Assembly: GCF_029846175.1 (NCBI RefSeq)
Contig: NZ_JARWAC010000031.1
Span: 1 to 64,000, forward strand
Direction of reading: 5' to 3'
Source of the DNA: Sphaerisporangium sp. TRM90804
Lineage (GTDB): Bacteria > Actinomycetota > Actinomycetes > Streptosporangiales > Streptosporangiaceae
DNA length: 64,000 nucleotides
The notes beneath the pieces were generated by a model. That model saw only the letters and a list, made by a program, of their open reading frames with translations, was not told where the DNA came from and searched no databases. The position numbers and the translations under genes are program-made. Positions within the stretch are counted from its first letter, which is position 1. Each line of letters starts with the position of its first letter. Shown here in pieces: positions 13,572 to 34,613 of this stretch.

Positions 13572-14921
13572 ATGGCCGACGACGGAAAGCAGGCGGGGAA
13601 CCCGCTGAAGCACCAGATAGCGGGGCTCGCGAAGATGGCGGGCAAGCTGGCGCTCTCCGCGCTGCGGCACCGGGTGGAGGGCGTGACCAAGCAGCTCACC
13701 GGCGTCGCCGAGGGCGGCGGCCTGAAGACGATGGGCCAGCTCGCGGGCGCCGAGGGCGGCACCGGCCGGATCAAGGGCCTGGCCAAGATGGCGTGGGGCG
13801 GGATCAAGAAGAAGCTGGGGTTCGGCGGCGGCAAGGGCAAGAAGTTCAAGTTCCTCAACATCATCGAGTCCCTGGACATCGGCGCCCCCAGGCGCCTGGT
13901 CTACGACCAGTGGACCCAGTTCCAGGACTTCCCGAGCTTCATGAAGAAGGTCGAGAAGGTCGTCCAGGAGAGCGACGAGAAGCTGACCTGGCAGGCGAAG
14001 ATCTTCTGGTCGCGCCGCACCTGGCAGTCCACGATCAGCGAGCAGGAGCCGGACGAGAAGATCATCTGGCGCTCGCAGGGCGCCAAGGGCTACGTCGACG
14101 GCGCCGTGACCTTCCACGAGCAGACACCGGACATGACCCGGGTGCTGATGTCGCTGGAGTACTACCCCAAGGGCCTGATGGAGCACATCGGCATCATCTG
14201 GCGGGCACAGGGCCGCCGGGCGCGGCTGGAGTTCAAGCACTTCCGGCGCCACGTCATGACCGTGTGCCTGCTCAACCCCGACGAGGTCGAGGGCTGGCGC
14301 GGCGTCATCCACGAGGGCGAGGTGGTCAAGGACCACGAGACCGCCGTGCGTGAGGAGGAGGAGCGCGAGGAGCAGGAGGAGCGGGAGCGCCGCGAACGTG
14401 AGGGCGAGCCCGAGGACGCCGAGCGCGATGAGGAAGAGGACCTGGAAGAGGGCGAGGAGCCCGAGGAAGGCGAGGAGCCCGAGGAGGGTGAGGAGGCCGC
14501 GTCCGAGGCCGAGGACCAGGAGGCCGAGGAGGGCGCCGAGCCTGAGGACGAGGAGGACGGCGAGCAGGCCGCCGACGAGCCGCGCCGCCGCCGCCGTCCC
14601 TGGCCCGTCGGGCGCCGTGGCCGGTCGCGCGAGGCCGGGGTGTCCGAGCGGATCGACGCCGACGGCGAGGAGCCCGAACAGGACGAGGAGCCGGAGGAGG
14701 AACGGCCCGCGCGCCGGCGGTCCAGCCCGGAGGAGCGGCGGGCACGGCGCGGAGCGGCGGGCGAGGAGGGCCGCCGCCCGGCGCGGAGCCGGTCGGCGGA
14801 CGAGGAGTCCGAGGAGCCGCGGCCGCGACGGCGCCGGGAGCCGGGCGAGCGCCCGGAGCCACCGCCCCGGAGACGTGCGCGCGGCGGCGAGCCGGAGGAG
14901 TCCCGCGGACCGCGCCGCTGA
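13572..14921 (+). CDS. SRPBCC-domain gas vesicle cluster protein with long charged tail (GvpZ-like)
   Basis: 449 residues. An N-terminal basic helical segment (1-85) precedes a START/SRPBCC lipid-binding-like domain (about 90-235; LNIIESLDIGAPRRLVYDQW, then FPSFMKKVEKV). The last 190 residues are almost only Glu, Asp, Arg, Pro and Ala, including EEGEEPEEGEEPEEGEE. Cyclase/dehydrase-like proteins of this kind are found inside Streptomyces gvp clusters. It starts four bases after the previous stop. The hydrophobic pocket may bind a lipid or a Gvp hydrophobic segment; the tail is probably disordered. No biochemical role is established. Confidence 0.65.
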   Translation: MADDGKQAGNPLKHQIAGLAKMAGKLALSALRHRVEGVTKQLTGVAEGGGLKTMGQLAGAEGGTGRIKGLAKMAWGGIKKKLGFGGGKGKKFKFLNIIESLDIGAPRRLVYDQWTQFQDFPSFMKKVEKVVQESDEKLTWQAKIFWSRRTWQSTISEQEPDEKIIWRSQGAKGYVDGAVTFHEQTPDMTRVLMSLEYYPKGLMEHIGIIWRAQGRRARLEFKHFRRHVMTVCLLNPDEVEGWRGVIHEGEVVKDHETAVREEEEREEQEERERREREGEPEDAERDEEEDLEEGEEPEEGEEPEEGEEAASEAEDQEAEEGAEPEDEEDGEQAADEPRRRRRPWPVGRRGRSREAGVSERIDADGEEPEQDEEPEEERPARRRSSPEERRARRGAAGEEGRRPARSRSADEESEEPRPRRRREPGERPEPPPRRRARGGEPEESRGPRR

Positions 14922-33544: not shown

Positions 33545-33757
33545 TCAGGAGTCCTCCAGGCGGAAGCCCACCTTCATGCCCACCTGGAAGTGGCCGACCT
33601 CCCCGCCCTCGATGTGCCCTCGAACCTCGGTGACCTCGAACCAGTCGAGGTGCCGCAGGGTCTCCGACGCGCGGCGGATCCCGTTGCGGATCGCCTGGTC
33701 GACGCTCTCGGTGGACGTGCCGACGATCTCGGTCACGCGGTAGGTACGGTCCGACAT
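33545..33757 (-). CDS. Dodecin family flavin-binding protein
   Basis: 70 residues, the standard dodecin size. The chain begins MSDRTYRVTEIVGTSTESVD and contains RHLDWFEVTEVRGHI, where the Trp stacks on the flavin. Dodecins are dodecameric spheres that store or buffer riboflavin/FMN. Single gene with an AAGGAGAATGG ribosome region. Confidence 0.9.
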   Translation of the reverse strand: MSDRTYRVTEIVGTSTESVDQAIRNGIRRASETLRHLDWFEVTEVRGHIEGGEVGHFQVGMKVGFRLEDS

Positions 33758-33840: not shown

Positions 33841-34161
33841 GTGGAAGGTGTGAAGGTCTGGCACGGCCGAACGGTCGTACATCAGGTCACCGACGCCCAG
33901 CCATCCCTGTCATCCGACATCGGGAAGCGCGAGAAGCGGTACTTCATCCAGATGGGCATCCGCACCATGTGCCTCATCCTGGCCGTCGTGCTCACCGTGC
34001 CGTGGCCGGTCAGGGCGCTCCTCGTCGCCGGCGCGATCTTTTTGCCGTACTTCGCGGTGATCGGGGCCAACCAGCCGAACCGTGGCATGAGCTCGGGCTT
34101 TGACTATGAGAAACCTAACCAAACCGAGATACCAAGGCACCGACGCGAGATCGGGTCGTGA
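33841..34161 (+). CDS. DUF3099 family small membrane protein
   Basis: 106 residues. The soluble N-terminus (VVHQVTDAQPSLSSDIGKRE) precedes two membrane helices around residues 45-85 and a short polar tail. Conserved in Actinobacteria, unknown role. The start is either the GTG at 33841 or the one at 33850. It stands just before the 6C-like RNA. Confidence 0.75.
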   Translation: MEGVKVWHGRTVVHQVTDAQPSLSSDIGKREKRYFIQMGIRTMCLILAVVLTVPWPVRALLVAGAIFLPYFAVIGANQPNRGMSSGFDYEKPNQTEIPRHRREIGS

Positions 34162-34168
34162 CTAACTC

Positions 34169-34200
34169 TTGACGCACCCCATGGGTTGTAGGTGTACGCT
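34169..34200 (+). promoter_or_regulatory. Candidate promoter of the 6C-like small RNA
   Basis: TTGACG at 34169-34174 and TACGCT at 34195-34200, spacer 20 bases, which is longer than the normal 17-18. The -10 placement puts the start near 34207, right before the first stem. Confidence 0.45.
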
Positions 34201-34204
34201 TTAG

Positions 34205-34316
34205 ACAAGCGCTCTGGTCCCCCGTCGGAGCGCTCGTGCCGGCGTTCCGGGCCCCCGTCGGAACGCCGATGAAGCGACGCCGGGTGGTTTGCCCCCGTAA
34301 CCACCCGGCGTCGCCC
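34205..34316 (+). ncRNA. 6C-like small RNA (C-rich-loop hairpins)
   Basis: Three consecutive perfect stem-loops: AGCGCTC/GAGCGCT (34208-34234), CGGCGTTCC/GGAACGCCG (34240-34268) and a 16-bp stem (34274-34289 with 34299-34314). Each loop holds CCCCCGT. Two hairpins with runs of C in the loops followed by a terminator define the 6C RNA class of Actinobacteria (the homologue in M. tuberculosis is ncRv13661). A -10 lies just upstream and T5 follows at 34328-34332. 6C RNAs are thought to pair through the C-loops with G-rich ribosome sites. The third C-loop inside the terminator is notable. Confidence 0.75.
34274..34314 (+). terminator. Terminator stem of the 6C-like RNA
   Basis: Perfect 16-bp stem GCGACGCCGGGTGGTT/AACCACCCGGCGTCGC with loop TGCCCCCGT. 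A run of five T is 13 bases farther on. It may also stop readthrough from DUF3099 or from the opposite strand. Confidence 0.75.
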
Positions 34317-34355
34317 ATTCCCGGAACTTTTTGGCGCCTGTCGCTTTCGAACGGT

Positions 34356-34613
34356 TCAGCGGTCGCCCAAAGTCTCCGCCGTCGCCTGTCCCCAGTTCTT
34401 CGCCATCGCCGACAGCCGCTCCAGCGCGTCCGGCGAGGCCGTTCCCCCGCCCTGGGCGAGGCCGAGGAGGTAGGCGGTCAGCGGCGCCGCGGGCCGGGCC
34501 ACCCCGTGGGCGACGTCCCTGGTCAGGTCGAGAACGGCGTCGCGGTCGACTTGCTCCTGGTCGATGCCCAGCTCCTTGCACACCAGCGCGGTCCACTCGG
34601 CCAGCACGTTCAT
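34356..34613 (-). CDS. DUF6457 small protein
   Basis: 85 residues, helical. It contains LAEWTALVCKELGIDQEQVD and the core VARPAAPLTAYLLGLAQGGG. This small family is found beside mobA/moaA in Actinobacteria and has at times been labelled as a molybdopterin-guanine dinucleotide protein from that context alone. The ATG at 34613 has AAAGGGA six bases upstream; the ATG at 34628 lacks one. Confidence 0.7.
   Translation of the reverse strand: MNVLAEWTALVCKELGIDQEQVDRDAVLDLTRDVAHGVARPAAPLTAYLLGLAQGGGTASPDALERLSAMAKNWGQATAETLGDR

Follow-up and report, generated by a model that had tools for sequence, protein, structure and literature searches.

The window analysed here is the whole 64,000-nucleotide stretch of Sphaerisporangium sp. 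TRM90804 DNA. In this window, a DUF3099 gene and a convergent moaA gene frame a short segment of the forward strand, and a dodecin gene lies further out (Table 1). The segment contains three hairpins at positions 34209-34314. Direct reading gives stems of 8, 10 and 16 bp, each closing a loop of 9 nt, and the loops have the sequence NNCCCCCGU in common. The sequence-only reading of this DNA had described three successive stem-loops, each with CCCCCGT in its loop, and they are real; hairpin 1 (hp1) contains a single G-U pair.

Table 1. Features of the C-loop locus in the window.
Feature	Position	Strand	Description
Dodecin gene	33545..33757	-	Outer neighbour in many lineages; Pfam 1.7e-29
DUF3099 gene (PF11298)	33850..34161	+	Conserved upstream neighbour; Pfam 1.8e-22
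Promoter, putative	34169..34200	+	TTGACG (34169-34174), 20-base spacer, TACGCT (34195-34200); from sequence
Whole transcript, predicted from promoter and terminator	34205..34322	+	About 110-118 nt
Hairpin 1 (hp1)	34209..34233	+	34209-34216 with 34226-34233; 8 bp, one G-U; stem GCGCTCTG/CGGAGCGC
hp1 loop	34217..34225	+	GUCCCCCGU
Hairpin 2 (hp2)	34240..34268	+	34240-34249 with 34259-34268; 10 bp; stem CGGCGTTCCG/CGGAACGCCG; loop GGCCCCCGU
Hairpin 3 (hp3)	34274..34314	+	34274-34289 with 34299-34314; 16 bp; stem GCGACGCCGGGTGGTT/AACCACCCGGCGTCGC; loop UGCCCCCGU; terminator-type
moaA	35313..36302	-	Conserved convergent downstream neighbour; Pfam PF06463/PF04055

The loop motif is not common in the window, which holds 19 copies of CCCCCGT against 28.5 expected. 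Long stems flank only three of these copies, all in the C-loop element, and the other 16 have stems of 5 bp or less. A looser count by script, in which G-U pairs are allowed, gives 10, 11 and 16 bp for the three hairpins. In 30 first-order Markov simulations, CCCCCGT hairpins with at least eight pairs occurred at 0.3 per simulated window. The element has a folding z-score of -6.81, and none of 200 shuffled sequences was as stable. The alignment-based fold (RNAalifold) recovers the three hairpins and closes one or two more pairs inside each loop. The single-sequence optimum of 34205-34336 is not exactly three hairpins, as the 5' arm of hp2 pairs with CCCGGAAC after hp3. This stretch, at 34320-34327, can pair with GTTCCGGG of hp2, and it is not conserved in the relatives.

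A promoter-like sequence precedes the hairpins. The sequence-only reading had pointed to a TACGCT -10 element upstream and a T5 tract downstream. Both are present, but the gap of 20 bases between TTGACG and TACGCT is long for a promoter spacer, and T5 (34328-34332) lies 13 bases beyond the hp3 stem, so that it does not form a tight U-tract in the source genome. TTGAC-N20-TAnnnT occurs immediately 5' of hp1 in 48 of the 53 own-family loci tested, duplicates included. In other-family loci, an extended -10 of the TGnnATAcT type lies roughly 40-60 bases 5' of hp3 (28 of 39 loci, compared with 0 of 1380 background stretches). Because of these two regularities, the C-loop RNA very probably has its own promoter, and transcription is predicted to start near 34205-34207. 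In the window, a short inverted CACC/GGTG pair stands at the two ends of the unusually long spacer (34175-34194). Long spacers of this sort are used by MerR-type activators.

The element is well conserved in the Streptosporangiaceae. A DNA search of 41 genomes found it in 27, comprising all 11 of the genus (its own genome included), 13 of 14 from the rest of the family (24 of 25 for the family in total), one of four other members of the order and two of 12 other members of the class. Two covariance models were built, one for the three-hairpin form and one for a two-hairpin core of hp2 and hp3. The three-hairpin model matched all 28 sampled family genomes, a count read from the unmatched genomes, which, listed by kinship, include no family member; in the class sample as a whole it matched 80 of 296 genomes. 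Second matches in three genomes (G127, G065 and G250) are the first site picked up again on the opposite strand. A second match in G242 (L080), a hairpin that lacks a C-loop, was rejected as a member.

The structure of the element appears to be under selection. In an alignment of 23 family sequences, 22 of them distinct, 100% of the cells in the 34 base pairs hold standard pairs and nine pairs have changed on both sides, which none of 500 shuffles equalled. Changes on both sides affect three of the eight pairs of hp1, where 100% of cells are paired in the 22 distinct sequences, and four of the ten pairs of hp2. The loops of hp1 and hp3 are each identical in all 23 aligned sequences, and that of hp2 reads CCCCCGU in 22 and CCCCCGC in one. 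Among the 28 family sequences, hp3 carries CCCCCGU in every one and all three loops are exactly CCCCCGU in 25; two of the three deviants have CCCCCGC in hp1, and the third has four C in hp1 and hp2. Judged by these sequences, the loops are nearly constant while the stems vary, although they are not absolutely fixed. The sequence directly 3' of hp3 gave no alignment among the family relatives.

The two-hairpin core extends the family to other actinomycetes. The weaker matches that were fetched and read, L080 apart, are equivalents of hp2 and hp3 or keep the C-loop in hp3 only. In 33 sequences from several families, 97.4% of the cells are paired and 13 pairs are doubly changed (0 of 500 shuffles). 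For hp3 alone, 99.6% of cells are paired across families and 8 of 16 pairs are doubly changed; in hp2, 5 of 8 core pairs are. The core model matched 118 of the 296 class genomes, some through hp3 alone, and 9 of 246 genomes in a phylum sample, with no match outside the class. Both searches, like the three-hairpin search of the class and the 6C survey described below, used stricter filters, at the cost of weak matches. A pattern scan of named genomes gave at least 118 stretches, mostly from Streptomyces among the matches listed, which also include Kitasatospora, Streptacidiphilus, Embleya, Jiangella, Nonomuraea, Microbispora and Rhizohabitans, among others. At least 11 of these stretches, again among the matches listed, have three loops, ten of them by a stricter pattern, which missed L120; they are labelled Nonomuraea, Microbispora, Rhizohabitans, [Actinomadura] parvosata or Streptosporangiaceae, and one only Actinomycetota.

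The number of C-loops varies by lineage, and their position follows a pattern. A script that read 194 loci, with duplicates included and strict patterns, scored three C-loops in 55, two in 122 and one in four, and left 13 unparsed; one locus scored as one-loop (L058) has two further loops of four C. Where a single C-loop survives in other-family loci, it is that of hp3, the terminator hairpin. By script, 38 of 39 other-family loci have at least five C and then a G in the hp3 loop, and the exception has four C; in two of the 38 (L287 and L288) hp2 was scored in place of hp3, and the stems of L070 and L293 were undercounted through one mismatch. A second C-loop was scored in at least 24 of the 39, with the hp2 C-loop of L282 missed. 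Many relatives, Streptomyces included, have six C in hp3 but five in hp2. In two loci of one family (L294 and L295, family f15), the hp3 stem is largely rewritten (GCGAACCGGGGCGGC) and the loop UCCCCCGU is retained.

By these comparisons, the C-loop of the terminator hairpin hp3 is the most constant and most widely conserved part of the RNA. The sequence-only reading had stressed this loop as the additional one, and the emphasis has to be reversed. The extra part is hp1, which belongs to the form found in Streptosporangiaceae and close kin, while Streptomyces, Jiangella and others share hp2 and hp3. As for known families, no Rfam model reached its gathering threshold on the element, and none of 20 relative loci reached the Rfam thresholds. 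On this comparative evidence, the window element is a three-loop member of an actinomycete C-loop RNA family that is not listed in Rfam 15, and the C-loop RNA is a candidate new Rfam family.

The genes around the RNA are largely the same across lineages. Among the matches listed, 112 of the at least 118 named loci have DUF3099 upstream in the same orientation, as do 34 of 39 loci from 14 other families. A convergent moaA lies downstream in 101 of the named loci (matches listed, loci cut at 8 kb) and in 33 of the 39. A dodecin gene further upstream was found in 10 of the at least 118 mostly Streptomyces loci listed, and in 27 of the 39. Since the locus is largely fixed, the copies at DUF3099-moaA are probably orthologous. 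In 101 of the at least 118 named loci (matches listed), the RNA is also followed by a small same-strand gene encoding an ICSAKGC protein, often within about 100 bases.

This arrangement, with DUF3099 before and the ICSAKGC gene closely after, would suit a cis element, either a leader or attenuator for the ICSAKGC gene or the terminating 3' end of the DUF3099 mRNA. We regard such a role as improbable. The ICSAKGC gene was detected in only 20 of the 39 other-family loci, and a leader function is disfavoured because the Pfam-supported genes 3' of the RNA in the window are on the opposite strand. The putative promoter stands between DUF3099 and the RNA, and terminator function does not require constant loops. 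A mere DUF3099 terminator was rejected on the grounds of this promoter, of loops that are kept as stems change, and of five of the 39 loci (L066, L078, L296, L297 and L299) that retain the RNA without a detected upstream DUF3099. Conservation solely as a DUF3099 terminator, the outcome that the sequence-only reading had set against itself, is therefore not what these loci display.

The C-loop RNA resembles 6C (RF01066; B11 of mycobacteria), an actinobacterial small RNA with C-rich hairpin loops. On the 301 bases of 34100-34400 the 6C model, which requires at least 47 bits for membership, gave no match even at E up to 10, and it gave none in 20 relative loci. The six sub-threshold Rfam matches on 34100-34400 belong to other families, the best being an enterovirus element (E 0.017). 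The true 6C of the source genome scores 61.3 bits and lies on another contig (C4:24675-24750, with the C-loop element on C25), next to a gene that reads in translation as MinD/CpaE-like. 6C is described as having two stem-loops with at least six C each (PMC8388888). The element has three stem-loops with exactly five C each.

Across the class, the two RNAs often occur in one genome. Among the 296 genomes, 142 have a 6C match at E up to 0.001, of which 112 exceed the Rfam cut-off; 83 genomes have both RNAs, 35 only the C-loop family and 59 only 6C. The two share a contig in 16 of the 83 genomes, always at least 2.0 Mb apart; elsewhere they are on separate contigs. All eight sampled genomes of one genus, g31 (G065, G099, G127, G216, G224, G250, G294 and G310, from the 28 of the own family), match the three-hairpin model and lack any match to 6C at E up to 0.001.

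Membership in 6C was rejected on the absence of model matches, the five-C loops and the separate locus. The element is, by sequence comparison, a second RNA beside 6C, built like one. That it is instead a diverged 6C copy would account for the common architecture of C-loop hairpins with the last as terminator, but we consider this very improbable given the lack of any match at E up to 10 and the distance between the two RNAs in genomes that have both. A very old common origin may nevertheless link them. Of the designation "6C-like small RNA" in the sequence-only reading, the apparently independent, conserved RNA gene, the thrice-repeated C-loop and a plausibly 6C-like action stand; the model search that it had proposed removes the name 6C and leaves the RNA.

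The terminator is a further point of likeness. 6C had been taken to consist of two loops plus a separate terminator, and nine 6C copies contradict this, for in each the second C-loop hairpin runs directly into CCCTT(T). A C-loop in the terminator is thus a trait shared with 6C. The last C-loop hairpin of 6C runs into a U-tract. For the C-loop RNA, 28 of 51 parsed family loci (duplicates included) have TTTT no more than 10 bases past hp3, and T5 in the window lies 13 bases on. In the window, the C-loop RNA differs from 6C in its loops of five C then GU, as opposed to six or more C, in its three hairpins and in its DUF3099-moaA locus. The presence of 6C-like C-loops in at least two separate genes per genome (83 of 296) calls for caution.

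Other known RNAs were compared as well. By Streptomyces numbering, we take the DUF3099-moaA locus to lie near SCO1820, and for this reason the scr5583 and scr1434 RNAs of Streptomyces are probably other genes than the C-loop RNA. Like the C-loop RNA, these two sRNA families are conserved and have a C-rich loop; they are highly expressed and named for their right-hand neighbour genes SCO5583 and SCO1434 (PMC3765725). The Moco RNA motif (PMC2408646) is also found near molybdenum-cofactor genes but upstream of them, while moaA is here convergent and downstream. A search of open-licence main texts gave no description of the C-loop RNA, which RNA-seq supplementary tables may list, and no papers on DUF3099.

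The element carries the sequence marks of an sRNA gene, namely its own putative promoter, a terminator-type hairpin, a structure under selection and no strict dependence on a neighbour. We favour, as reasonably probable, a stand-alone trans-acting sRNA of about 110-118 nt that represses or modulates several mRNAs by pairing redundant loops with G-rich sites. The sequences show the position of the gene, its conserved structure and promoter, the nearly constant loops, the synteny and the separateness from 6C; expression, the pairing mechanism and repression as its result are inferred. The RNA would be transcribed from its own promoter and ended by an intrinsic-type terminator. By analogy with B11, its CCCCCGU loops would pair first with ACGGGGG-like sequences at ribosome-binding sites or close by, several mRNAs would be repressed or modulated through such pairing, and the C-loops would act redundantly. 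To our knowledge, how actinomycete sRNAs find their targets is largely an open question. Mycobacteria and Streptomyces have no identifiable Hfq, and overexpression of B11 in mycobacteria is lethal or slows growth (PMC2764107). In B11, either C-loop is enough to repress eccB4, and repression is lost only when both loops are mutated; B11 acts through the eccB4 5' UTR, which contains a six-G tract (PMC10470900). The C-loop family is matched in 118 of 296 genomes, lies in a fixed neighbourhood and keeps its loops nearly constant; with its naturally occurring one-, two- and three-loop forms, it lends itself to the study of loop redundancy.

Complementary sites are not generally abundant. The window had been described as full of GGAGG and GGGGG, which is wrong for GGGGG (236 observed, 483 expected) and amounts to 295 against 274 expected for GGAGG. 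The complement of the loop motif, ACGGGGG, occurs 19 times where 28.6 are expected. The comparison of CCCCCGU with start regions that had been suggested gave no G-rich excess: ACGGGGG is not enriched before starts, ranking 22 of 42 permutations for 586 ORFs that a crude caller predicted in 864 kb of the genome's 8.3 Mb. Because of this, the C-loop RNA does not appear to be a blanket Shine-Dalgarno blocker.

The same result would fit a protein sponge, in which the repeated identical loops titrate an RNA-binding protein instead of pairing with mRNA. CsrB and RsmZ are sponges of this kind, with several hairpins and one loop motif; their motif is GGA and binds CsrA. Near-identical repeated loops on variable stems, and a loop number of one to three by lineage, also agree with a sponge. 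We nevertheless hold it to be unlikely. No actinomycete protein is known to us to bind CCCCCGU loops, and 6C/B11, the most similar kind of RNA that has been studied, targets a G-tract through its loops.

For the favoured trans-acting sRNA, whiA is a candidate target, picked post hoc from 36 loosely matching places. The genome has 161 places where a start codon follows AYGGGGGA; the reversed pattern, a poor control, gives 50. It is possible, though speculative, that the C-loop RNA is a second C-loop regulon RNA beside 6C, with a CCCCCGU code in one, two or three interchangeable hairpins, a constant terminator loop, a multivalent three-loop form in Streptosporangiaceae and close kin, and targets that include sporulation control (whiA). 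In the source genome, the extended Shine-Dalgarno stretch of whiA reads ACGGGGGAGG (L280, about 14490-14545, minus strand). The need for a Shine-Dalgarno sequence may alone explain this stretch. A[C/U]GGGGGA complements 8 nt of the hp1 loop, the U form with one G-U pair. The fetched flanks reached the whiA start in 23 loci. Among 16 family genomes, A[C/U]GGGGGA is absent at whiA in five and present in 11; the stretch reads ACGGGGGAGG here, AUGGGGGA in 10 others, UUGGGGGA in three and otherwise in two.
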